Shown in pieces: positions 869 through 62,488 of a DNA stretch of 64,000 nucleotides. The DNA lies in contig NZ_JTHE03000104.1 of NCBI RefSeq assembly GCF_000817775.3, positions 62,001-126,000 of the forward strand, in the 5' to 3' direction. The notes under the pieces were generated by a model. It searched no databases. It saw only the letters and a program-made list of their open reading frames with translations, and had not been told where the DNA came from. The DNA is from Lyngbya confervoides BDU141951 (lineage in GTDB: Bacteria; Cyanobacteriota; Cyanobacteriia; Thermosynechococcales; Thermosynechococcaceae). Each line of letters begins with the position of its first letter. Position 1 is the stretch's first letter. A program made the translations under genes and the position numbers.

Positions 869-3457
869 ATGGCGGATTGGTCTTCTCGGGAGCCAGATCA
901 TGGGATTGATCGGTTGGACATGAGTGAGTTATTCACCCTGGGACGACCGGCCAACTCAGAACGTGAGGATCTCCCCCGTGGGGCAAAGACCTCCTCCTCC
1001 ATGCGTCATTTGCTGGTTCTGCGCGAGGGAGACCAGGAGCGCGTCATTACTCTGGATGCAGCCACCTACTCCCTGGGACGACATCCTGCTAATTCGATTG
1101 TGGTTGAGGATAAATTGGTTTCTCGCCAACATGCAATTTTGTTGCGAATTCCCAAACCCCAAAGTGGGGACTGTTTTTTTAGGATCATTGACGGAAACCT
1201 TCAGGGACGACGCAGCCAAAATGGCATTTGGGTCAATGGTAAACGTCTTTATTCTCGAGATCTCCGTGATCGCGATGTGATTGCAATTAGCAACTCCATC
1301 CATGCGACCTATCATCAGATTCAGGCAACCGACACCGACTTGAACGCTTTGCCGTCTGATGAGTCACCTTCTGCGGCGCAAGGACGCATAGACAGTACCT
1401 TTTTAGACTCTGCTGAACAAGAGCAGTACAGTGAGGCGGTGCTGGTGCGCCTGTCTTCATTTCCGGAAATGGCACCCCATCCCATTGTAGAAATGGATTT
1501 GCATGGGGGGATTACCTATCTAAATCCGGCGGCAGACCAGGAGTTTTCAGGCATTCGAGACCAGCCCGATCATCCGGCGCGGGTGGGGGTTCGACAGCTG
1601 ATGCTCCAAAACGCTAACTACTGTGGAACTCGGGAAATTGAGGTGGCCGGGCGTATCTATGAACAGTCCATTCAGGGAATTCCCCAAAGTCAATTGATTC
1701 GCTGCTATCTCATTGACATTACCCAACGGCGGCAGATGGAAAGGGCTGTCCGCAAAAGCGAAGAGCGCTATGCGCTAGCCGCACGCGGGGCCAATGACGG
1801 ACTGTGGGATTGGGATTTAAACCAGAATGCCGTTTATCTGTCTCCGCGCTGGAAGGCCATGATTGGCTATGCTGAGGACGAAATCTCAACTCAGATTCAG
1901 GAATGGCTAGGGCGGATCCACTCCGAGGATCAAAGTCGAGTGCAAACCGAAATTGAACGCCACCTGACCGGGCAAAAGCCGTACTTTGAATGCGAATTTC
2001 GGCTACTGCATAAAAATGGGGACTACCGCTACGTTCGCAGTCGCGGCATGGCGGTGTTTGACTCCCAGAATCAGCCCTTGCGGATGGCCGGGTCCCAAAC
2101 TGATATTACAGAGTACCATTTGGCCCGAGAGCAGCTGCTCCACGATGCCTTTTACGATGCCATGACTGGCTTGCCGAATCGAGTGCTACTGCTAGATCGC
2201 GTTAGTCAGGCGCTAAAAAAATGCAAGCGACATCAGCAGGATCGCTGCGCGGTTTTATTTTTGGATTTAGACCGCTTTAAGGTGATTAATGACAGCCTGG
2301 GGCACATGATGGGCGACAAGCTGATTGTGGAGGTATCGAAGCGGCTGCTGAATTGTCTCCGATCTGAAGACACGGTAGCGCGGCTGGGCGGAGACGAGTT
2401 TGTGATATTGCTCAAGGATGTGGAGGGGGTTGATGGTGCGATCGCCGCGGCCCAAAAGGTCCAGCAAATATTAGCAATGCCCTTTGATCTGGCGGGTCGA
2501 GAAGTGTTTACCTCGGTCAGTATTGGCATTGCCTTGGGCCACCGGCACTATGAGCGACCTGAAGATCTGCTCAGGGATGCGGATGCCGCGATGTATCAGG
2601 CCAAGCAGGAGGGCAAAGATAGCTACATTGTGTTTCAGAGCGCTATGCATACTCAGGCTGTGGCACTGCTTGAGCTCGAAAATGATCTTCGCCGGGCAAT
2701 TGAGCGTCAAGAGTTTCAACTGTACTATCAACCGATTATTGATTTAAATACCCACCAGATTCGATCCTTTGAAGCATTAGTCCGTTGGTTTCATCCAGAG
2801 CGGGGCTTGGTGCCGCCTTCGGACTTTATCCCCCTGGCCGAAGACACCGGCCTGATTATTCCCATGGGATATGGGCTGTTGCGGGAGGCTTGCCAGCAGC
2901 TTCAGCAGTGGCAGCAGCTGGCACCTGCTCCCCTGTCTGTCTGCGTGAACATTGCCAGCCGTCAATTTGCCCATGCAGACTTTGTAAACTATCTTCAACA
3001 GATTCTCACGGAGATTCCATTACCTCCAGGTAGCCTCAAGCTGGAAATTACAGAAGGGGTGATCATGAAACGGCCGGATCTGGTCGCTGATAAACTTGCC
3101 CAGCTCAAAGATTTAGGGGTTCAGCTCAGTGTGGATGACTTTGGTACGGGATATTCTTCCTTGAGCTACTTGCAGACGTTCCCCGTTGATACGCTGAAAG
3201 TGGACCGATCCTTTGTCATGAAGATGGGGCATCCGGACAGTCGCGAGATTGTGAAAACCATCGTCACGCTGGCCCACAACCTGGGACTGGATGTGGTCGC
3301 CGAAGGTGTAGAAACCCAGGCTCAGGCTCAGTTACTGAAGGCCATGGGCTGTGAATATGCCCAAGGCTACCACTTTGCGCGACCCATGGAGCCTGATGCG
3401 GTTCTATCCCTGCTCGGGACAAAAGATCAGCGGTCTGTTCCCCATCCTGCCCTGTGA
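869..3457 (+). CDS. FHA-PAS-PAS-GGDEF-EAL c-di-GMP turnover protein
   Basis: 862-residue cytoplasmic signalling protein predicted to make and/or break down cyclic di-GMP. Domains in order: FHA phosphothreonine-binding domain (about 67-125, with SLGRH and SRQHAIL); a first PAS-like domain (about 195-285); a second PAS/PAC (about 300-415, with LWDWDLN); GGDEF (about 425-590, intact GGDEF at 507-511, inhibitory-site RxxD at 498-501); and EAL (about 605-850, EAL at 635-637, DDFGTGYSSL and AEGVETQ present). Both catalytic signatures look intact, so either or both activities are possible. An FHA domain in front suggests control by a Ser/Thr kinase. No membrane segment is seen. The start is the ATG after AGGAACACCTGT. 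It stands alone in its orientation apart from the hydrolase gene 75 bp downstream. Confidence 0.93.
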   Translation: MADWSSREPDHGIDRLDMSELFTLGRPANSEREDLPRGAKTSSSMRHLLVLREGDQERVITLDAATYSLGRHPANSIVVEDKLVSRQHAILLRIPKPQSGDCFFRIIDGNLQGRRSQNGIWVNGKRLYSRDLRDRDVIAISNSIHATYHQIQATDTDLNALPSDESPSAAQGRIDSTFLDSAEQEQYSEAVLVRLSSFPEMAPHPIVEMDLHGGITYLNPAADQEFSGIRDQPDHPARVGVRQLMLQNANYCGTREIEVAGRIYEQSIQGIPQSQLIRCYLIDITQRRQMERAVRKSEERYALAARGANDGLWDWDLNQNAVYLSPRWKAMIGYAEDEISTQIQEWLGRIHSEDQSRVQTEIERHLTGQKPYFECEFRLLHKNGDYRYVRSRGMAVFDSQNQPLRMAGSQTDITEYHLAREQLLHDAFYDAMTGLPNRVLLLDRVSQALKKCKRHQQDRCAVLFLDLDRFKVINDSLGHMMGDKLIVEVSKRLLNCLRSEDTVARLGGDEFVILLKDVEGVDGAIAAAQKVQQILAMPFDLAGREVFTSVSIGIALGHRHYERPEDLLRDADAAMYQAKQEGKDSYIVFQSAMHTQAVALLELENDLRRAIERQEFQLYYQPIIDLNTHQIRSFEALVRWFHPERGLVPPSDFIPLAEDTGLIIPMGYGLLREACQQLQQWQQLAPAPLSVCVNIASRQFAHADFVNYLQQILTEIPLPPGSLKLEITEGVIMKRPDLVADKLAQLKDLGVQLSVDDFGTGYSSLSYLQTFPVDTLKVDRSFVMKMGHPDSREIVKTIVTLAHNLGLDVVAEGVETQAQAQLLKAMGCEYAQGYHFARPMEPDAVLSLLGTKDQRSVPHPAL

Positions 3458-12301: not shown

Positions 12302-14851
12302 TTAGAATCGCTGTCCGAATCCAAAATGAACCCGGTCCCTCCCTTCATCATTAATGGCGTAGTCAATTCGCACGGGGCCAATGGGGGTTTTGACACGCAC
12401 TCCGGCTCCGAATCCGAATCCGTCTCCGGGCTTGCCTCGAATTAAGCTGGGGACCCCTGGGACTTCGCTATCGCTGCCCAGGACCGTCCCGTAATCGACG
12501 AAGAGAACCCCGCCAATGCCGCCGAGAAAATCAATCAGCGGGAATCGATATTCGGCAGTGGCTTGCAGGAAGCTGCGGCCGCTGCCCACATCGCCGTCGT
12601 CAAAGCCCCGCACTGAGTTGCTGCCTCCTAAATTAAAGGCTTCATAGGGCGGAAGATCGCCCAGAATCGTTCCCCCTTGGACATTGAACGCTAAGGCTTG
12701 GGGACCTTTGGCAAGTCTCAGGAGTTTGACTGGAAAAAATTGGCTGTAGCTGGCTCTCAAACGGGTAAAGGCAATGGATCCGGACCCAATTGGCACGGTT
12801 TGCTCAAGTCCAACTCGAATCAGGTTTCCTTTGGTGGGATCAACAGGATCGTTGCGTAAATCTCGGGCAATGCCAAATTGAACGCTCAATAGGTCATCTT
12901 GAGCGTCTAAATTTAAGGCGCGGATGGCTGCAATCTGCGCGGGTGTCAGATCTTGGTTGATGTCAAAGCCTGCCGCTCGCGCCTCCTTGACGCCGCTGAA
13001 GGTGAGCGGTTTGCCCAGTTCATCAACGGGAGCCAAGTCCAAATCAGAATCTCGTGCTGAGATCCGCTCGTAGCGAATTCCCACTGAGCCAACCCAGGCG
13101 CGCGGCAGCTTATCTGGATTTTTCGTGAACGGTCGTGTAAAGGAGACGCCTCCCCCAAGACGATTAATTCTGGGGCGACCGCCGCGAATAAATTCGCCCG
13201 TATCGGGATCAATCGTGCCGGGGAGGCGCACATCACAGGGGCTGTTAATGCCGGGGTTTACCACCTCGCTACAGGCAGGACTGTTGACGTTGAGATTGGG
13301 GTCGGCGGGATTAATGAAGGTGGTGTTGTCAAACACGCCACCGTCAAACACCAAGGGGAGGGTGAGACGGTTAAAGCCATTGACGGTATAGGAAGTGCGG
13401 TAGGGATCGCCCTTAATCCAGGGATTGGTTAAGCCAATATCAAACAGAAATTCTCGGGTGCCTACCTGCGCTTGGGCGTTAAGCTTGAGGTTGCGGCCCA
13501 GAAGGTTGGTTTGGGTGTAGGAACCGGTTCCAAAAAATCCGCTGCTGGAGCTAAAGCCTGCCCCAGCAGAAAAGCTACCGGTTTTGCGCTCTTGAACATT
13601 CAGGTTCACCACCACCTTGCGCGGATCTTCTCCTGGTTCAAGGGCCACTTGCACATCTTCAAAAAGGCCCAGGGCAAAAATTCGCTGGAGATCGGCCTGA
13701 AGCCTATCGCGGTTGAGGATTTCTCCAGGCTGAGATCGCATCTCCCGCGTAATAATGTATTCCTTGGTTTTCCCCTTTTTCGGTTCACCTTCTTCATTCT
13801 GGTAGCGAATGGCGATGCTTTCAATCTCGCCTTCGGCAACCTGGAGGGTGACTGTGCCGTCTGCATCAATTTGAGGGGCGCCCACCACCTGTCCGAGAAC
13901 GTAGCCGCTCTCTTGGTAATATTGGTTAATTTCGTCGATTCCTGTCTGTAACTGGTTGAGGTTGAGAACCTCACCATATTGCGAGGCGAAGATTTTTTCG
14001 ACCTCCTCCTCAGTGAGCACTTTGTTTCCAGCTAGCTGAACCGATCGCAATACGGGGTTCGGCAGCACAAAATAGGTGACCCGCACCCCCAGGGGGGTAT
14101 CGCTGGGGGCCACCTGCACATTGCTGAAGTATCCTGTGTTGTAGATGGCGTTGATGTCCGACTGAATTTGCGATCGCGTGGCGGTTCCACCTGGACGTGT
14201 GGCGATGGCTTCGTAGACAGCAGTGATCAACTCAGGATCTTGGGTGCCTTCAACTGCGACCTCAGACACCAGGACCAGGGGTTCAGGTGTGCCGCTCTCC
14301 TGAGTTTGACCGGGACTGACCGGGGGAGGAACTGTGGGTACCGGTGTCGGGGGGATATCTCCTGCCGGGGGGACATCTCCTGCCGGGGGGACATCTCCTG
14401 CCGGGGGGGGAGAGAGGGGATCTTCCGTATCCAGGGGAGGAGGAGGTGTCCCTGGGGGATCTTCGCCGGTTGAATCTAGATCTTCGATCTCGCCATTCTC
14501 TTCGACTGAGCCATTGGGCCGGGTATTCTCTTCAACGCCCGGTGCCTCGGTGGAGTTGACCCCGTTCATTTCTAGCTCGCTATCAGGTTGTGCGGGAGCT
14601 TCAGGGATTGAGTTGTCCTCGGATGGGGGGGCGAGATCGGCTTGGGCCAGGAGGGGAATGCTCTGGGTCTGGGCGATCGCCGCGGGTTGGAAGTCGGATG
14701 ATGCCGCCTCTGCAGGGGGCTGAACGAGACAGAAGAAAAGACCTGAACCAAGAATATTCAACCCAAGAATGGGCGACAGAAGTTTATTTTTCAATTTTTT
14801 TTTCACTCCACTCAACACCCATAGATGACCCGTGTCATCTTGGAAACCCAC
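12302..14851 (-). CDS. bamA: BamA/Omp85-family outer-membrane assembly protein
   Basis: 849-residue outer-membrane protein predicted to insert beta-barrel proteins. Order: signal peptide after a basic KKKLKNK stretch; an acidic, Pro-rich linker (about 65-190) with a PPAGD repeat; POTRA-like domains (about 190-430, with VAVEGTQD, VQLAGNKVLTEEEV and the FSNVQV and FEDVQV turns); and a C-terminal 16-strand-type barrel ending in HFGFGQRF, with terminal Phe. The conserved barrel motif NSVRGFDDG is present (VRGF/Y-type loop 6). The start is ATG 14851; GTG at 14806, directly before the basic stretch, would give a more standard signal peptide. It is downstream of purC on the same strand. Confidence 0.95.
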   Translation of the reverse strand: MGFQDDTGHLWVLSGVKKKLKNKLLSPILGLNILGSGLFFCLVQPPAEAASSDFQPAAIAQTQSIPLLAQADLAPPSEDNSIPEAPAQPDSELEMNGVNSTEAPGVEENTRPNGSVEENGEIEDLDSTGEDPPGTPPPPLDTEDPLSPPPAGDVPPAGDVPPAGDIPPTPVPTVPPPVSPGQTQESGTPEPLVLVSEVAVEGTQDPELITAVYEAIATRPGGTATRSQIQSDINAIYNTGYFSNVQVAPSDTPLGVRVTYFVLPNPVLRSVQLAGNKVLTEEEVEKIFASQYGEVLNLNQLQTGIDEINQYYQESGYVLGQVVGAPQIDADGTVTLQVAEGEIESIAIRYQNEEGEPKKGKTKEYIITREMRSQPGEILNRDRLQADLQRIFALGLFEDVQVALEPGEDPRKVVVNLNVQERKTGSFSAGAGFSSSSGFFGTGSYTQTNLLGRNLKLNAQAQVGTREFLFDIGLTNPWIKGDPYRTSYTVNGFNRLTLPLVFDGGVFDNTTFINPADPNLNVNSPACSEVVNPGINSPCDVRLPGTIDPDTGEFIRGGRPRINRLGGGVSFTRPFTKNPDKLPRAWVGSVGIRYERISARDSDLDLAPVDELGKPLTFSGVKEARAAGFDINQDLTPAQIAAIRALNLDAQDDLLSVQFGIARDLRNDPVDPTKGNLIRVGLEQTVPIGSGSIAFTRLRASYSQFFPVKLLRLAKGPQALAFNVQGGTILGDLPPYEAFNLGGSNSVRGFDDGDVGSGRSFLQATAEYRFPLIDFLGGIGGVLFVDYGTVLGSDSEVPGVPSLIRGKPGDGFGFGAGVRVKTPIGPVRIDYAINDEGRDRVHFGFGQRF
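14357..14410. repeat. Three 18-bp tandem repeats inside bamA
   Basis: Three near-identical 18-bp units (ATCTCCTGCCGGGGGGAC on the plus strand). On the coding strand they encode PPAGDI/PPAGDV in the Pro-rich linker in front of the POTRA domains. Unit length is a multiple of three, so copy changes keep the frame. Confidence 0.9.
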
Positions 14852-28160: not shown

Positions 28161-28649
28161 GAGTGATTCAGTTTCCTTGTGAGGGGCAGCCCCAGCTTGC
28201 ATGAAGGGTAGGGTAATCTTGGCAGACCCCGATCTCGATGGAGGGGGGAATCCGCTTAGTATAGAACGATAGACATTGATTACTCCCCTGCGTCTGTTCG
28301 CCATGGGCGATATCCATGGGCGATATCCATGGGCGATATCCATGGGCGATATCCATGGGCGATGTCCACCGCTGAGGCAAGTTTCCTATTGGATTCTCCA
28401 ATCCTGACTATCAATTCCAGGGAGGGAAATCCTCACGTTTTGTGAACCCCTGAGCGGTGGCTCCTGATGGGTAGATCCCTTGTGGTTCAACCCTTTGCAT
28501 GCATAGTCGAGGGGAAACGGGAGCGACTTGATTGGGGGCGCTTGTATTCCCAATTACTTTTTCTTTTGGGTGAAGCAGAGACGATCCTCCGTGCAAAGTC
28601 AGGAGTTGGGTCCTAGACTTGAAGCAGTTTTGCCAGGGAGGACCATTGC
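28161..28649. other. Divergent promoter region of pta and xfp
   Basis: 489 bp without a gene. The only striking content is the 13-bp tandem array at 28301-28365. Both divergent promoters must lie here; AT-rich TTACTTTTTCTTTTG at about 28554-28568 precedes xfp. No known riboswitch was recognised. Confidence 0.4.
28301..28365. repeat. Five 13-bp tandem repeats
   Basis: Unit CCATGGGCGATAT, four exact copies and a fifth with one change (GATGT). The unit contains CCATGG and, at the junctions, GATATC palindromes, so the array can fold on itself. It sits in the shared pta/xfp promoter region. Confidence 0.95.
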
Positions 28650-37972: not shown

Positions 37973-39232
37973 GTGTCCCACTTGACAGGGAGTTTCAGAC
38001 CGAGCAACATCGGGGAACCGCTTAGGGTAGGATGGCGCTGGGTAGGGTTGCCGGTTAGCAAGGCTCTCCCTGGGAGCGATACCCACAGAAAATTCATACA
38101 GCGCCGTTTCTTTCTCTTTCTCATGGCCTCGGCTTGGCTGGGGGCCATCGCCCTCTCCAGGAGGGCTCGGGCACTCTCGGGTCGGGAGATTCGCGATCGC
38201 GCCGCCGCGATTACGGTGCAAATTCAGGCGGCCGGCAGTTCGGGCTCCGGGGTGCTTCTACAGCGCCAGGGAAATCGCTATGCGGTGCTGACGGCGAAGC
38301 ATGTGGTGGACGCCACCCAGCCCGGTGAGGAACTTTACGCGGTGACCAGCGATGGTCGATTCCATGGGGGGGTGGTCCAGGAAATGGTTTTGCTCGCGGG
38401 GCTAGATGTGGCCCTGTTGTGGTTTGCCGTCGCCCCAGAGGCCCCGGACTATGCTCTGGCAGTGGTGGGAAACTCGGATGCGCTGGTGGAGACGGATCGG
38501 ATTTACGTGGCGGGATTTCCCCAGACGGGACTGGCCATTACTCGCCCCACCTTCACCATTACCCAGGGAGTGGTCACTGGAAAAGGCACCTACGAGCGTG
38601 GCTATGGCCTGATTGATGACAATGTCACCCAGACGGGGATGAGCGGCGGACCCATTCTCAATCAGCAGGGCCAACTGGTGGGAATTCATGGCCTGGCGGA
38701 GCAGGTGGTGCAGGGGGTGCCCGTTAAGGCCGGACTGAGCCTGGGGATTCCCATTCAGACGGCGATCGCGGTGCTGCCGATTGCGGTGCCTGTCTTGTCC
38801 CCGGAAGATCCCCCGGCGCCCGCCGATACCTTTGATCAGTTTCTAGATCGCTACTATGCGGCCCTGCCCCGTCTCCTGGAAAAGCGCGATGCCCTTAGTC
38901 TCTATAGCTTCATGCCTATTCACAAGGAGCGGTTTCGCTACAGAACCCGCACCGGCAAAGTCCAGGACTACAATGCCCGCTTGGTGGGTGCCACCGAGTT
39001 CTATCAAAGGTCTCTGGCCCGCGGCGAATCCTGGACCATTCTCTTTGACGAAATTTCCATCCATCGCCCCGATCCCAATCGCGCCCTCGTGACCCACAGG
39101 GAAACCGTGAAATGGTCCCTGTGGCCAGGACTCCTGCGCGGGGTGTCTCGCCGCCAGGAAACCTATGAATGGGAGCGCTTTGACCATCAGTGGATGATTG
39201 TTTCAGGATCAGAACGAGTTTTGGATGATTGA
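37973..39232 (+). CDS. Trypsin-like serine protease with extra C-terminal domain
   Basis: Up to 419 residues. A basic then hydrophobic segment (FIQRRFFLFLMASAWLGAIAL) predicts export. The S1-type protease core has TAKHVVD (His, with Lys before it where HtrA has Ala), GLDVALLWF (Asp) and TGMSGGP (Ser). No PDZ domain follows; instead about 130 residues resemble an NTF2-like fold (FLDRYYAALP to WERFDHQWMIVSG). The start is uncertain (GTG 37973, TTG 38048, ATG 38123; only the first two keep the full signal peptide). The TGA stop at 39230-39232 is inside the terminal TTGA of an IS relic, so the C-terminus may have been shortened. Confidence 0.82.
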   Translation: MSHLTGSFRPSNIGEPLRVGWRWVGLPVSKALPGSDTHRKFIQRRFFLFLMASAWLGAIALSRRARALSGREIRDRAAAITVQIQAAGSSGSGVLLQRQGNRYAVLTAKHVVDATQPGEELYAVTSDGRFHGGVVQEMVLLAGLDVALLWFAVAPEAPDYALAVVGNSDALVETDRIYVAGFPQTGLAITRPTFTITQGVVTGKGTYERGYGLIDDNVTQTGMSGGPILNQQGQLVGIHGLAEQVVQGVPVKAGLSLGIPIQTAIAVLPIAVPVLSPEDPPAPADTFDQFLDRYYAALPRLLEKRDALSLYSFMPIHKERFRYRTRTGKVQDYNARLVGATEFYQRSLARGESWTILFDEISIHRPDPNRALVTHRETVKWSLWPGLLRGVSRRQETYEWERFDHQWMIVSGSERVLDD

Positions 39233-39389
39233 CATCCTCTCTCTCTGACCCTGAAAGGTCAGAGGAAGATTCCCTGGTTCACATCAAGGATTTCCTGCTT
39301 CAGTGCCAGTTGACTAGAATTCATGACTGAACTCCCCGTCACCCCGACTCCCCAGGCATTTTCTATTCCCCGTTGCCCACGGAAATCAC
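39229..39389 (-). mobile_element. IS200/IS605 right-end relic, copy 1
   Basis: Right end of an IS605-type element, read on the minus strand. It carries the last codons of tnpB (degenerate, with RGQRGIENA-like and LKQEIL pieces), then a hairpin CTCTGACC/GGTCAGAG and the terminal tetranucleotide TCAA, the same right cleavage tetranucleotide known for IS608. 27 nt at 39363-39389 are identical to 60205-60231 in copy 2, and the outer 13 nt (GAGAGGATGTCAA on the minus strand) are shared. No transposase and no left end were found nearby; the remaining 39390-39542 holds no gene. Confidence 0.8.
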
Positions 39390-39542
39390 GTAGCGTAAAG
39401 CCTGGATCTCCTGACCTCCTCAGCCTGATCTCACGCCAAAAGTCGTCCTTGCCCCTGCGGCAGCGGGCTTGGTGGGTGTATTCAGGAGGCGAAGAGATTC
39501 ATTCCTGAGGCCAGCGCACAGCGGTCCCTAGGCCCAAGGATT

Positions 39543-48320: not shown

Positions 48321-50441
48321 ATGGTGTATGTCGGTGAGCAATCCCAGATTAATGTTCTTGTGGTTGAGGACGAGGCCATTGTGGCCCTGGATTTACAGCG
48401 CCGCCTGGAGCGACTTGGATATCAGGTTCCTCATATTTTTGCATCGGGGCATGACGTGCTCGACCGTCTGGCTCAGCTTCAGTGTGATCTCGTGCTGATG
48501 GATATTCGCCTTCCCGGTGAGCTCAATGGGATTGAGACTGCGGAGCGCATTCAGCAACAGCGCAATATTCCGATTATTTTTCTGACGGCCTTTACTGACC
48601 CGGAAACGATTGAGCAGGCCCGACGCCTTGAGCCAGTGGGATATCTGGTGAAACCCTTTAGTGAGCCGAGCTTGAACTCCACGATCCAGGTGGGGCTGTA
48701 TCGGCATCAGATGCGGCTTGCCCTCCAGTCCCAGAAGGCCCGCCTCAAAACGATTCTCGACAGCATCTCCGATGCCGTGGTGGCCACCGATTCCGAGGGA
48801 CGCATTACCTTTATGAATCCGGTGGCAGAGACCTTAACAGCCTGGATGCAGCATCAGGCCGAGGGCTACCCGATTGATCAGGTCATTCAATGTTTTCAGC
48901 ATGGACCCAATGCGGAGGAGATCCCTGTTCCCAATCCTGCCTTGGAGGCTCTGGTGAGCGGGACCCCCGTGTCTTTACCTGAGGATGTGGTCTTGCGCAA
49001 CCGCGCACAAAAGAACATTCCCATTGACGATAGCGCGGCTCCGATTCTGGAGCCGGATGGCCGAATTTCCGGCGCTGTCATGGTGTTTCGAGATATTTCA
49101 GAGCGCATCCAATACCGTAAACAGTTGCTTCACCGGGCCCTGTACGACCCACTCACGGGGTTGCCGAACCGGGAGTTGCTCCTCAATCGCCTGGAACAGG
49201 CCATGGTGCGCTTCGTTCGATACCCGGCAGATGGCTATGCGCTGCTGTTTATCGATCTTGATCGCTTTAAGGCGGTCAATGATGGATTTGGGCATCTGGC
49301 GGGCGATGATCTGCTCAAGCAGGTGGGTGAACGGTTACAGCGCTGTTTGCGTCCCTCCGATACGGTGGCCCGCCTGGGTGGGGATGAATTTGCGGCGCTG
49401 CTGGAGCATGCGGCGGATCTGACGCAGGTGCGCACTGTGGCAGCTCGGATTTTGCAAACCCTGGGTGATCCCTTTGGATACCGTGGCCAGCAATTTTACG
49501 TTTCTGCCAGCATTGGCATTGTCTATGGAGAAACTGCCTACCGACATCCGCAGGATGTGATCCGAGATGCAGATATTGCCATGTACCATGCTAAAACCTC
49601 CGGAAAAGGGCGCTATACCATTTTTAATAGTCAGATGAAGTCTCAACTGCTTCAGCGCGTCCGCTTGGAAAACGATCTCCGCCAGGCCCTGGCCAATCAG
49701 GAGCTGGGCATTCGATATCAGCCGATTGTGGCCTTGGCGTCTCGAAGGGTGGTGGGGTTTGAGGCGCTGATGCAATGGCATCATCCCACCGAGGGGATAA
49801 TTGCCCCGGATCGCTTTATTCCGCTAGCTGAAGAGCTGGGGCTGATTCAAGATCTCGATCTGTGGATTTTACGCCAGGCTTGTGCTCAACTGCAGAGGTG
49901 GCGGGATGATTTTCCCGACTGTGGTCCGCTCACGGTGAGCGTGAATTTTTCAGGCAAAATTTTTAGCCACGCCCACTGCTTTGAAACCATTACGCAAATT
50001 TTCAAGGAGACTCAATTGCCGCCGAGTGCCCTGGTGATTGAAATCACTGAGAGCATCCTCATTGAGCATTCGGAGGCCGCAGAGCAACTGTTGGAGAACC
50101 TGAAATGTTTAGGAGTGGAGATTCACCTGGACGACTTTGGCACCGGATATTCTTCCTTGAGCTATCTGCACCACTTTCCCATTGATGCCCTCAAAATTGA
50201 TCGCTCCTTTGTCGACATCCTTTCCCAGGATGAACAGCATTCCTTTTTAATTAGCACGATTGTGACCCTGGCCCATGCCATGGATCTGCCCGCCATCGCT
50301 GAGGGGATTGAAACCCAAGATCAGTACGACATGATTCAGGCCCTCGGGTGCGATTTGGGTCAAGGGTATCTTTTCCATCGACCCCAGAGTCCGGCTCAAA
50401 TTTCAGCACTGTTGCGATCGCTGACCCCAGCGACCGAATGA
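48321..50441 (+). CDS. Response regulator with PAS, GGDEF and EAL domains
   Basis: 706 residues. The receiver domain (about 10-125) has acidic residues EDE at 16-18, phospho-acceptor Asp61 (LVLMDIRLP), Thr in FLTAF and Lys in YLVKPF. PAS follows (about 138-265), then GGDEF (about 268-435; intact GGDEF at 353-357, inhibitory RxxD at 346-349) and EAL (about 445-695; EAL at 481-483, HLDDFGTGYSSL and AEGIETQ present). Both catalytic sites look intact. It starts 7 bp after the ethylene-receptor-like kinase stops, so it is the likely phosphorylation partner and converts the signal into a c-di-GMP change. Confidence 0.93.
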   Translation: MVYVGEQSQINVLVVEDEAIVALDLQRRLERLGYQVPHIFASGHDVLDRLAQLQCDLVLMDIRLPGELNGIETAERIQQQRNIPIIFLTAFTDPETIEQARRLEPVGYLVKPFSEPSLNSTIQVGLYRHQMRLALQSQKARLKTILDSISDAVVATDSEGRITFMNPVAETLTAWMQHQAEGYPIDQVIQCFQHGPNAEEIPVPNPALEALVSGTPVSLPEDVVLRNRAQKNIPIDDSAAPILEPDGRISGAVMVFRDISERIQYRKQLLHRALYDPLTGLPNRELLLNRLEQAMVRFVRYPADGYALLFIDLDRFKAVNDGFGHLAGDDLLKQVGERLQRCLRPSDTVARLGGDEFAALLEHAADLTQVRTVAARILQTLGDPFGYRGQQFYVSASIGIVYGETAYRHPQDVIRDADIAMYHAKTSGKGRYTIFNSQMKSQLLQRVRLENDLRQALANQELGIRYQPIVALASRRVVGFEALMQWHHPTEGIIAPDRFIPLAEELGLIQDLDLWILRQACAQLQRWRDDFPDCGPLTVSVNFSGKIFSHAHCFETITQIFKETQLPPSALVIEITESILIEHSEAAEQLLENLKCLGVEIHLDDFGTGYSSLSYLHHFPIDALKIDRSFVDILSQDEQHSFLISTIVTLAHAMDLPAIAEGIETQDQYDMIQALGCDLGQGYLFHRPQSPAQISALLRSLTPATE

Positions 50442-58264: not shown

Positions 58265-58912
58265 GTGGGAATCCAGGGAGTTCGTTCGCAGCGGCAGCTG
58301 TCTTCGGAAAAGACAGCTGCAATTTTGGCAGGGGCCATGCAGCAGTTTTTGCGGTATGGCTATGCCGGTAGCAGCATGGATCGCATTGCAGCGGCGGCGG
58401 GAGTGTCTAAGGCGACGGTGTACAGTCATTTTCGGGATAAGGAGGGGCTGTTTGCGGCCTTAATCCAGCAGATGGCTGTCGAAAAAATGGCCCTTATGGA
58501 TCGTGAGCATTTTGGAGAAGGCAGTGCCCGAGAGTTGCTCCAGCGAATTCTGGCGCAGGGGGTTGGTCAGCTTGAAGAAGATGATGAATATGGCGCTTTT
58601 ATCCGCTTGATCATTGGCGAATCTGGTCGCTTCCCGCAGCTAGCCAGACTATTTGTGGAAAATATTTCCAAACCTGGCGTCGACCGTCTCACGCAGCTTT
58701 TAGCGGCCCATCCACAGGTTCAATGTTCCGATCCCGAGGCTACGGCCCGGATTGTGATTGGGGCGGTTGTGCATTACAAATTAATCCAGGACATTCTGCA
58801 TGGCAGAGACATTATGCCCCTTGAGAGCGATCGCATCATTCAGGCCCTGGTGAATTTAATCTGTGGCGCCCCCGCGCAGGTGTGGCCCTCCGCAGGGGGA
58901 TCGAGGTCATGA
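58265..58912 (+). CDS. TetR/AcrR-family transcriptional regulator
   Basis: About 215 residues. The N-terminal TetR helix-turn-helix (about 18-62, with GYAGSSMDRIAAAAGVSKATVYSHFRDK split across helices 2-4) is followed by an all-helical ligand-binding part with RFPQLARLFVENI, typical of the TetR_C group. I chose GTG 58265, preceded by GAGAGG; the longer frame from 58163 has an unlikely N-terminus. It overlaps eamA by ATGA, so the two are translationally coupled. It is divergent from the DevB-like gene, the likely target together with eamA. The ligand is unknown. Confidence 0.9.
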   Translation: MGIQGVRSQRQLSSEKTAAILAGAMQQFLRYGYAGSSMDRIAAAAGVSKATVYSHFRDKEGLFAALIQQMAVEKMALMDREHFGEGSARELLQRILAQGVGQLEEDDEYGAFIRLIIGESGRFPQLARLFVENISKPGVDRLTQLLAAHPQVQCSDPEATARIVIGAVVHYKLIQDILHGRDIMPLESDRIIQALVNLICGAPAQVWPSAGGSRS

Positions 58913-59901
58913 GCCCCCCTTCTGAGGTTTCTCCTGCTGATCAGGCTTCTCTCCCGCGTCCCCTCACTGCAGTGACGGCGATCGCCGCTCTTTTCCTGGG
59001 CATTCTGGCGGTGTCCTTTGCCGCCATTTTTGTGCGCATCAGTGAACAAGATCTCGGTCCCTATGCCACGATTTCCCATCGCTTCTGGATTGCAGCTCTT
59101 GCCCTGAGCATCGGGCTGGGGGGGCAATCTTCTCTGGGCCAGAGCGTTTCCCTGGGACAATCCTTGGGGTCTTTGGGGCGATCGCAGTGGGGACTGCTGA
59201 TCCTCGCGGGCTTGATTTCGGGGGTGGATTTGTGTGTTTGGGCCACTTCCCTGACGCAGACCAGCGTGGCGAATGCGGCGGTGCTGGGCAACTTAGCCCC
59301 CCTATTTACGGCCTTGGGCACCTGGCTGCTGTGGAAACAGCGCTTTGATCCACGCTTTCTGGTGGGGCTGGCAGTGGCCCTGGCGGGGGCACTCACCATT
59401 GGCCTCCAGGATTTTCAGCTGCTGCCAGGGCAGGTTCGCGGTGATGGACTTGCCCTGCTGTCTGCGGTCTTTTTTAGCGCCTATCTGCTGACGATCGAGC
59501 AGCTGCGATCGCGGTTAACGACGCCGCTCATTCTGCTGGTCTGTTCTGGGGTGGCGGCTCTGGTGAGCGGTGCGATTTCTCTGGGCCTAGAAGACCATTT
59601 TTGGCCCCAGTCGCCCTTGGGGTGGGGCGCGGTGATCGGGTTGGGTCTGATCAGTCAAACCCTGGGTCAGGGATTAGTGGCCTATAGCTTAAGTCAGCTG
59701 TCTTCGGGCTTGGTGTCTGTGACTTTTTTGCTGGAGCCTGTGGTTGCGGCAATCTTTGCCTGGATTTTATTTGGAGAATCGCTGGGCCTACTCAACGGGT
59801 TGGGATTTGCCCTCGTGATTGTAGGGGTCTATCTGGCCATCATGAGTCAGACGGAGCCTACCGGGACCTCCGCTAAGGCCGCGATCGCGGATGTCGAGTA
59901 G
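58909..59901 (+). CDS. EamA/DMT-family transporter
   Basis: 330 residues with ten predicted membrane helices in two EamA repeats (first about 25-150, second about 175-310). Family exporters move small metabolites such as amino acids or drugs out of the cytoplasm; the substrate is not predictable. Typical segments: SFAAIFVRIS, NAAVLGNLAPLFTALGTWLLW and SVTFLLEPVVAAIFAWILFGE. ATG 58909 overlaps the tetR stop. The TAG stop at 59899-59901 is immediately followed, in the same frame, by a tnpB fragment, so the end of this gene borders an IS relic. Confidence 0.9.
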   Translation: MSPPSEVSPADQASLPRPLTAVTAIAALFLGILAVSFAAIFVRISEQDLGPYATISHRFWIAALALSIGLGGQSSLGQSVSLGQSLGSLGRSQWGLLILAGLISGVDLCVWATSLTQTSVANAAVLGNLAPLFTALGTWLLWKQRFDPRFLVGLAVALAGALTIGLQDFQLLPGQVRGDGLALLSAVFFSAYLLTIEQLRSRLTTPLILLVCSGVAALVSGAISLGLEDHFWPQSPLGWGAVIGLGLISQTLGQGLVAYSLSQLSSGLVSVTFLLEPVVAAIFAWILFGESLGLLNGLGFALVIVGVYLAIMSQTEPTGTSAKAAIADVE

Positions 59902-60366
59902 CGGCGCAAAGACTGGCTCGATTCTCGCAAGTCTCCGGTCAATGCTTGTTCAATTCGGCAAGCGTTTACCTTGCCAACGGATGCACCCTTCCCTGATTAC
60001 CACGTTCAGGTAAAGCGGTTGACTGTGGCCAAGGCTGACTTCCCTAGGCTCAAGACTGTTAATGCTCAGGTGCTTCACCAGGTTATCCGAAAGCTGGAAG
60101 CGTCCTGGGAGTCGTGGCGGTTGAAGCGGTCGGGATTCCCTGTCAGTATCTCTTACTGTCTTGAATGTGGGTCAATCCAGCCAAGCGACAGGGCTGCGGC
60201 TCAAGTGATTTCCGTGGGCAACGGGGAATAGACAATGCCTGTGGAGGAGATGGGGCGGGGACTCGGGTTCCTCAGTCTAGCGGTCACCTGTTGAAGCAGG
60301 AAATCTTTAGGGCGACCCTAGGAATCTCTACTCTGTCCCTGAAAGGTCAGAGGGAGAGGATGTCAA
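59902..60366 (+). pseudogene. tnpB remnant and IS200/IS605 right end, copy 2
   Basis: Degenerate IS605-type tnpB. 59902-60154 encodes an N-terminal TnpB piece in frame (RRKDWLDSRKSPVNAC, then NAQVLHQVIRKLEASW and SGFP). The RuvC core is deleted. A fragment of the C-terminal zinc-finger part (CLECGSIQPSDRAAAQVIS) follows, then a frameshift into RGIDNACGGDGAGTRV and HLLKQEIF. The right end has a hairpin CTCTGTCC/GGTCAGAG (one mismatch) at about 60331-60352 and the terminal TCAA at 60363-60366. The first 27 nt of 60205-60231 equal those in copy 1. TnpB is the nuclease whose guide RNA overlaps the right end; neither left end nor tnpA is present. Confidence 0.85.
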
Positions 60367-61547
60367 AGCCCCAAATCTCGAACTCCGGATCGCAGGGTTT
60401 CAGCGGTTGTTGGATCTTGCTGTTCATAAAGCTGAATGGCTTGCTCAAAGGCGGTGCGACTCTCCGAAACTTTCCGCAGCTTAAACAGAGCCACCCCTAG
60501 ATTTTGATAAGCTGCGGCATAGGTAGGATCTAGCTCAATGGCTTGCTGATAAGCTTTAGCCGCCTCCTGCAGGCGATTCAACGACTTCAGCGCCAGTCCT
60601 AAATTGTAGTGGGCGATCGCCACTCCCGGACAGAGGCGAATTACATGGCCCAAAAGCTGCATGGCTGGGGAGGCGGCACCGTGATCTAGGTAAAGGCACC
60701 CTAGATTCATGAAGGCGCCCACCTTCAGCAGATCGTCACAGTCCTGCGCAAGGGCAGTTTTGTAAGCCAGCTCCGTCTGTCGCCAGTCCTTTTGCCTGGC
60801 GTAAATCAACCCCAGATGATAGTTCAACTCATAGCGCACCGCTGCCTCAACGTTAGGCAGCGCAATCCCGCGCTGAATCAGGGCTAGGGCCTCACTCCAA
60901 CGGTTTTGTTCGTAATAGAGCCCTCCCAGCTTGCTCAGCAGATAGGCATCCTCTGGGTGTTGTCGAAGGCCCTTTTCCAGCATCCGCTGGGCGCGCGCGA
61001 GTTTTTCTTTGCTTTGCAGCCGCTGCTGTTGATATCCCTCGTGGCGAAGGGCCAGCGTTGAAATCTGACCAATTTGCCAGTGCGGCTCTGCGCGTTGAAT
61101 CGCAACGACGCTGTCATCCACCAGCTCATGATAGGGACGCTTGAAGGTCATCTGGGGATGATTGCGAAACAGGCGGGACACCAAGGAAATGGGCGTGCGC
61201 TGGGATCCGACTTCCTCGCGCAGGAGCTGAAACAGCAAAATATTCGGATCTTTAATCGCCTGTTTGATGGCGGGCACCGCGGCTGGGAGTAGTTCTTCAT
61301 CGGCATCCAGCACCAGCACCCAGTCCCCTGTGACCTGCGCGAGGCTGTAATTGCGTGCCGCGGCAAAATCGTCACGCCAGACAAAGTCATAAATCCGAGC
61401 GCCAAAGGACCGGGCGATCGCTGCGGTCTCATCCTGAGATCCGGTATCAACCACAATCTGCTCATCGACCAGACCCTGAACGCTTTGTAAGCACCGTGCC
61501 AGCACAGCAGCTTCATCCCTAACAATCATGCACAGGCTCAGAGACAT
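60363..61547 (-). CDS. Family-2 glycosyltransferase with TPR repeats
   Basis: 394 residues. The N-terminal GT2 domain (about 1-215) has LSLCMIVRDEAAVLARCL, DTGSQDET and the nucleotide-sugar/metal motif LDADEEL (DxD, about residue 83). TPR repeats follow (about 215-390, for example AIAHYNLGLALKSLNRLQEAAKAYQQAIELDP). Members of this group probably add sugars to proteins or cell-surface glycans; the acceptor is unknown. I chose ATG 61547, where GT2 similarity begins; the frame upstream to 61739 overlaps cysE and is not family-like. The TGA stop (60365-60363) lies within the terminal TCAA of the IS relic. Confidence 0.9.
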   Translation of the reverse strand: MSLSLCMIVRDEAAVLARCLQSVQGLVDEQIVVDTGSQDETAAIARSFGARIYDFVWRDDFAAARNYSLAQVTGDWVLVLDADEELLPAAVPAIKQAIKDPNILLFQLLREEVGSQRTPISLVSRLFRNHPQMTFKRPYHELVDDSVVAIQRAEPHWQIGQISTLALRHEGYQQQRLQSKEKLARAQRMLEKGLRQHPEDAYLLSKLGGLYYEQNRWSEALALIQRGIALPNVEAAVRYELNYHLGLIYARQKDWRQTELAYKTALAQDCDDLLKVGAFMNLGCLYLDHGAASPAMQLLGHVIRLCPGVAIAHYNLGLALKSLNRLQEAAKAYQQAIELDPTYAAAYQNLGVALFKLRKVSESRTAFEQAIQLYEQQDPTTAETLRSGVRDLGL

Positions 61548-61726
61548 TTCGATAAAAGCACCTTCAAAAAACCCTGTCAGCGTAACTTTAAAGGGTTGGG
61601 CAGTGGTGGGCCAAAAGGTTTTGGGCAAAATCTTGCAGGGGTGCCTCCGGACCTCCACAAGATCCTGATGTGGGACAACCTCAAAAACGCTACCATAAAA
61701 AGTGGTGAATCCAAGGGAGACCGCCT

Positions 61727-62488
61727 GTGGTACTTGCAACCCTGAAAACCGACTTCCAGGTCATCTTTGAAAAAGACCCTGCTGCACGCAATGTGCTGGA
61801 GGTGATGTTTCTTTATCCGGGTTTACAGGCGATCGTGCTGCACCGGTTTGCTCACCTGCTCTACAACCTGAAGCTTCCCTTTATTCCGCGCTTAATTTCC
61901 CACATCTCCCGATTTATCACCGGAATTGAAATCCATCCGGGTGCCACCATCGGGCGTGGACTGTTCATTGACCATGGCATGGGGGTCGTTATCGGGGAAA
62001 CCGCCATCATTGGCGATAACTGTTTGATTTATCAAGGGGTTACCCTGGGCGGTACAGGCAAAGAACTGGGCAAACGCCACCCCACCCTGCAAGATAACGT
62101 GGTGGTGGGCACCGGCGCCAAGGTGCTCGGCAATATTCAAATTGGAACTAATGTGCGCATTGGGGCTGGGTCCGTTGTGCTGCGAGATGTCCCTTCGGAC
62201 TGCACGGTGGTGGGTGTGCCGGGCCGCGTCGTCTATCGTGAAGGCGCGAAGGTGAATCCCCTGGAGCATGGTAAGCTACCTGACTCGGAGGCGCAGGCAA
62301 TTCGGTACTTACTCGATCGCATTGAAGTTCTAGAAAAGGAATTGGCTGAACTTAAAGACTCCACCCACCAGGAGCGCCGACCCGCTGCCGTCGCCTCCGT
62401 TGAGCAGCAGAGCTGTCGGCTACAGGATAAGGCGATTGAGCAATTTCTAGCCGGTTGTTCAGAGTTCTACGGCGATTCTTCGGTTTAG
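61727..62488 (+). CDS. cysE: Serine O-acetyltransferase CysE
   Basis: 253-residue enzyme acetylating serine with acetyl-CoA, the first step of cysteine synthesis. The N-terminal helical region (FEKDPAARN and LHRFAHLLY) precedes a left-handed beta-helix of hexapeptide repeats (about 65-175) with [28 protein letters not shown], the catalytic His and [10 protein letters not shown]-terminal helix (about 190-215) and a loosely conserved tail (about 215-253) follow. GTG start at 61727 after AAGGGAGA. It is divergent from the glycosyltransferase gene and convergent with the DUF2854 gene. Confidence 0.96.

Follow-up and report, generated by a model that had tools for sequence, protein, structure and literature searches.

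Whether a transposon that supplies the stop codon of a gene has truncated its host is the question raised by a trypsin-like serine protease gene (37973-39232, plus strand) in the 64,000-nucleotide stretch of Lyngbya confervoides BDU141951 DNA that we analysed, hereafter the window. The gene (Pfam Trypsin_2, E = 5.6e-19; likely start ATG at 38123) is full length relative to four orthologues, and its reading frame ends in ...GTT TTG GAT GAT TGA, giving the C-terminus ...VSGSERVLDD. As a preliminary description of the locus had proposed, the stop TGA (39230-39232) is part of a TTGA at 39229-39232 which, read as TCAA on the minus strand, is the terminal tetranucleotide of an IS200/IS605 right end, and a perfect hairpin follows closely, beginning 10 nt after the stop (39243-39264, not assigned to a strand; 8-bp stem, 6-nt loop; arms CTCTGACC at 39243-39250 and GGTCAGAG at 39257-39264). 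The element is a 161-bp relic (39229-39389, minus strand) bounded at one end by the terminal TCAA and at the other by the position immediately following an internal one; the entire omegaRNA-like scaffold is present, and both left end and tnpB are missing. Beside it stands a CTAC (39390-39393, minus strand; GTAG on the plus strand), the target tetranucleotide. On the gene strand, TTGACA at 39229-39234 is a perfect -35 hexamer at the right end; a matching -10 was not found.

The same arrangement, also noted earlier, recurs at a second copy in the window (59904-60366, plus strand), an internally deleted element composed of a fragment of the tnpB start, the tnpB end and the right end, whose terminal TCAA (60363-60366, plus strand) gives a minus-strand glycosyltransferase family 2/TPR gene (60363-61739) its stop. 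This host ends in GGG CTT TGA, inside TTGA, and its orthologues end a few residues apart with mixed stops (TAG, TGA, TAA); the target of the second copy is unreadable because the left end has been lost. At 59899-59904, the TAG of an EamA-type transporter gene (58882-59901) lies 2 bp before the start of the tnpB fragment, so that the lost left side of this copy also adjoins a gene end. Other repeats in the window comprise 13-bp head-to-tail repeats of CCATGGGCGATAT at 28301-28368, 18-bp direct repeats rich in CCGGGGGG at 14345-14408, and a 114-nt repeat shared at 74% identity between 3104-3217 and 50100-50213.

About 20 related right ends are found in the genome of the window (E down to 1e-54), so the match of the right end is not due to chance. 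The family is of a known kind, namely tnpB-bearing IS200/IS605 elements that are IS1341-like: the one intact member in the genome (G000:C26, 1423 bp) encodes a 416-aa TnpB matching PF01385 (9e-18), PF07282 (4e-10) and PF12323 (5e-10), that is, OrfB_IS605 together with the Zn-finger TNB domain, while the window copies retain tnpB fragments at most and most copies of the family are decaying. Of the three PF01797 loci in the genome, that at G000:C78, whose left end is related, lacks the second H of the HUH motif. This locus (L281, 2216-2710) is a tnpA-bearing relic with the same left-end type, its HUH motif damaged to HVY and its divergent tnpB decayed.

The left ends of the family fall into several sequence types. 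CTAC lies directly 5' of the type-A left ends in 16 of 16 cases, and CTAT precedes those of type B and of the Cyanothece, Symploca and related types wherever the boundary is recognisable; further upstream the sequences of different copies are unrelated, and right flanks are random. Since CTAC or CTAT stands before every left end that can be placed, the target is CTAY (R-TAG when read on the opposite strand); a TTAC target, as in IS608, was rejected because the left-end flanks read CTAY. The right end is laid out as GAAT, hairpin, GAGGATG and TCAA, with a subterminal hairpin and guide in which helix 7 covaries.

We consider it highly probable that this CTAY-targeting, TCAA-ended family exchanges stop for stop, leaving the host protein unshortened. 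The elements would insert 3' of CTAY, mobilised presumably in trans by a Y1 TnpA, whose chemistry we infer. Where CTAY lies opposite the stop codon of a gene, the R-TAG target and the TTGA terminus share the same register, so that insertion would swap one stop for the other, turning NNR-TAG into NNT-TGA with the position of the stop codon unchanged. In coding terms, only the third position of the final sense codon would change, Glu to Asp in the protease and Leu to Leu at the second copy. With the stop kept at the same codon, gene 3' ends would be neutral landing sites on which relics can last, probably through neutrality rather than benefit.

At the protease, joining the CTAC at 39390-39393 to the gene restores GAT GAG TAG, and the empty locus would be expected to read ...GAT GAR TAG CGTAAAGCC; precisely which stop the window gene had before the insertion can be deduced in this way, with some reserve, from the CTAC flank and from the orthologues. 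In cross-species comparisons, at identities from about 50% at protein level for the protease to 80% at DNA level for other hosts, the relic-free protease orthologues of four related genomes end within a couple of residues of the window gene (...VSVEEGERL or similar) on CTG-TAG, CTG-TAG, CTA-TAG and CTA-TAG, all of them R-TAG, the form that the target takes on the strand of the gene, and an element-bearing gene for a substrate-binding protein (genome G012) ends in CGT-TGA where the orthologues without the element in three relatives have CGA-TAG, CGC-TAG and CGT-TAG after the same Arg. The preliminary description had counted a common end residue followed by unrelated downstream sequence in such orthologues against its proposal; this pattern is indeed what we found, but we attribute it to an in-register exchange of stops and not to coincidence.

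The exchange is family-wide and more general than first observed at the protease and the second copy. We assessed the openness of each frame upstream of the right end in 90 distinct copies, drawn from the window genome, its relatives and loci of a genome-contig scan. Open reading frames of at least 200 codons enter the right end in 16 of the 90, with 15 in the frame of the stop, one in the second frame and none in the third (P = 8e-7 for 15 of 16 against an expected 1/3). An ambiguous right-end-like site facing a long other-frame ORF (G000:C71:13392) lacks the omegaRNA block and was left out of the count. One further stop-frame case, L350, came from a second sample, a class-wide pattern search whose hits are mostly chance occurrences within genes and from which L350 alone was used. 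The stop-frame hosts cover their family profiles almost completely, as seen for PEP synthase (783/784), GcvH (127/129), PucC (400/401) and PcrA (721/725), and DnaK follows the Hsp70 profile as far as 598/599; further hosts of this kind are an aldose epimerase and a Na/H exchanger. The sole out-of-frame host, a PhoD homologue (L234), is cut at 406/574 of its profile.

These data bear on the earlier suggestion that the IS landed within the protease gene and truncated its product. The gene does end within the element, and PhoD illustrates that such truncations occur, but the four orthologues finish at the same place, host genes match their family profiles to their ends, and, provided that CTAY is the target, any ORF that reaches the junction in the stop frame must have stopped there already; truncation of the protease is contradicted by the orthologues, and we regard it as very improbable. 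That the match of stops is mere chance would be a roughly 1-in-9 event if one considers the two in-frame copies that the window contains, yet against the family-wide 15 of 16 and the orthologue evidence its probability becomes negligible. Stop-for-stop exchange accordingly stands as our preferred reading of the gene's end, and a separate matter is why the relic, with its hairpin, has stayed there.

Over its final ~170 nt the element folds into a covarying structure of 41 pairs, 20 of them with two-sided changes (0 of 500 shuffles), and the scaffold is paired in 95% of cells versus 32-50% in slid controls. By its sequence, the 3' end of the element looks as expected of an omegaRNA, being apparently structured, overlapping the 3' end of tnpB and stopping at the right end; an Rfam search of the window returned no match. 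As for position, a 464-kb sample of the window genome with simple ORF calls holds R-TAG sites at 46 gene stops, 717 intergenic and 3373 genic places, and TAG is its commonest stop codon (153 of 340 ORF calls), so R-TAG landing sites are frequent. Relative to this baseline, copies of the window genome are in excess at gene ends (9/18 versus 6% of non-genic sites; P = 3e-7), whereas copies elsewhere, sampled mostly via intact tnpB, lie at stops in only ~6/72 cases (~8%), near the 6% baseline. Most simply, old relics would persist where they are harmless; a benefit from the relic, or an insertion preference for stops, could also lie behind the own-genome excess.

One such benefit would be that the right end is retained because its hairpin terminates transcription or stabilises the host mRNA at its 3' end, an explanation that draws on this excess and on the hairpin's place directly after the stop. 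We find it rather unlikely: copies in other genomes sit at stops only at the baseline rate, and the hairpin is the transposon's own conserved right-end stem, kept wherever a copy is located. An intrinsic terminator, taken as a GC-rich stem with a U-run, is unsupported at both the window relic and the second copy, where a terminator scan found none and no U-tract follows the hairpin, and the RNA fold z is only -1.1. Of the preliminary proposal that the IS end was kept as a ready-made stop and terminator, the stop stands, as the TGA within TTGA, and the terminator lacks support. Alternatively, the relic could be a domesticated solo omegaRNA whose guide would be antisense to the 3' end of the protease gene and through which a TnpB from elsewhere would cut alleles with an empty CTAC. 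The 161 bp include the whole covarying scaffold and an intact family TnpB is encoded at G000:C26, but no promoter reading into the relic from the upstream flank rose above shuffle level, there is no tnpB transcript as a source for processing and most copies decay, which makes this role distinctly unlikely.

Under stop-for-stop exchange, the window relic still needs an origin as a solo right end, probably through an internal TCAA acting as a surrogate right end in cutting. The relic starts with GTGATTTCC directly after CTAC, where intact copies read GGCTCAA-GTGATTT or GGCTCAA-GTGGTTT; another relic, at C88:84658 (L154), starts with CTGGCACTG after CTAC, where intact copies read AGTCAA-CTGGC; and a fragment of 84 bp (L158; G000:C44:47900-52000, element 2029-2112) lies exactly between these same two internal TCAA sites, with a left flank of CTCC, one base from CTAC. 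Together these three fragments suggest that an internal TCAA can be cut as a surrogate right end. Either a partial excision could have left the tail behind, or a TCAA-to-TCAA piece could have moved. The wider idea that internal deletions generally join TCAA sites was rejected, as most junctions show other microhomology; the junction of L139/L140 at GGCTCAAG contains TCAA but extends beyond it, and no TCAA precedes the start of the solo right end L176. Because ordinary microhomology accounts for other deletions in the family, surrogate right ends are a lead and not a rule.

Stop-for-stop exchange offers a simple, testable reason why some widespread bacterial transposons may lie harmlessly at the ends of important genes such as homologues of dnaK, pcrA and gcvH, and the rule can be checked against every target/terminus pair of IS200/IS605 elements. 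It also carries a warning for annotation, in that contact between an IS and the end of a gene does not by itself imply truncation, and the solo right ends are relevant to the origin of guide-RNA loci without tnpB. With more doubt than belief, we can imagine that the pairing of target and right-end tetranucleotides is itself selected. Lineages of IS200/IS605 whose targets are R-TAG (or GTAA) and whose termini are TTGA would then use stops as safe harbours throughout the genome, and could also generate solo guide-RNA copies devoid of a left end, with internal TCAA sites serving as surrogate right ends. Searches of open-licence papers on IS605/IS608 and stop codons, and on ISs that restore or overlap stops, gave no description of the exchange, which is weak evidence of absence.

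Among known systems, IS608 (ISHp608; CL TTAC, CR TCAA, GR GAAT, with C favoured at +1) resembles the present family in right cleavage at TCAA, insertion 3' of a tetranucleotide, GAAT before the right-end hairpin and a preferred C after the target (PMC5934647), and differs in its target, TTAC as opposed to CTAY. By its published sites IS608 would likewise turn GTAA into TTGA in phase; that paper makes no mention of this, and a search of it for 'stop codon' gave no hit. IS1341-type elements share the presence of tnpB only, without tnpA, and an omegaRNA-like 3' end, whereas here G000:C78 carries a decayed copy that includes tnpA and has a left end of the same type. MITE/PATE-like IS605 derivatives are similarly short and non-coding with IS605 ends but retain both of them, unlike the three fragments described above, whose left end is missing and whose sequence begins directly behind an internal TCAA. 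Finally, SCCmec and tRNA-gene islands are integrative elements by which the target gene has its 3' end rebuilt, and as in the present family the sequence of the element keeps the end of the host gene functional; here, by contrast, no homology segment or attB is involved, but a 4-nt target and a 4-nt terminus with their stops in the same register.
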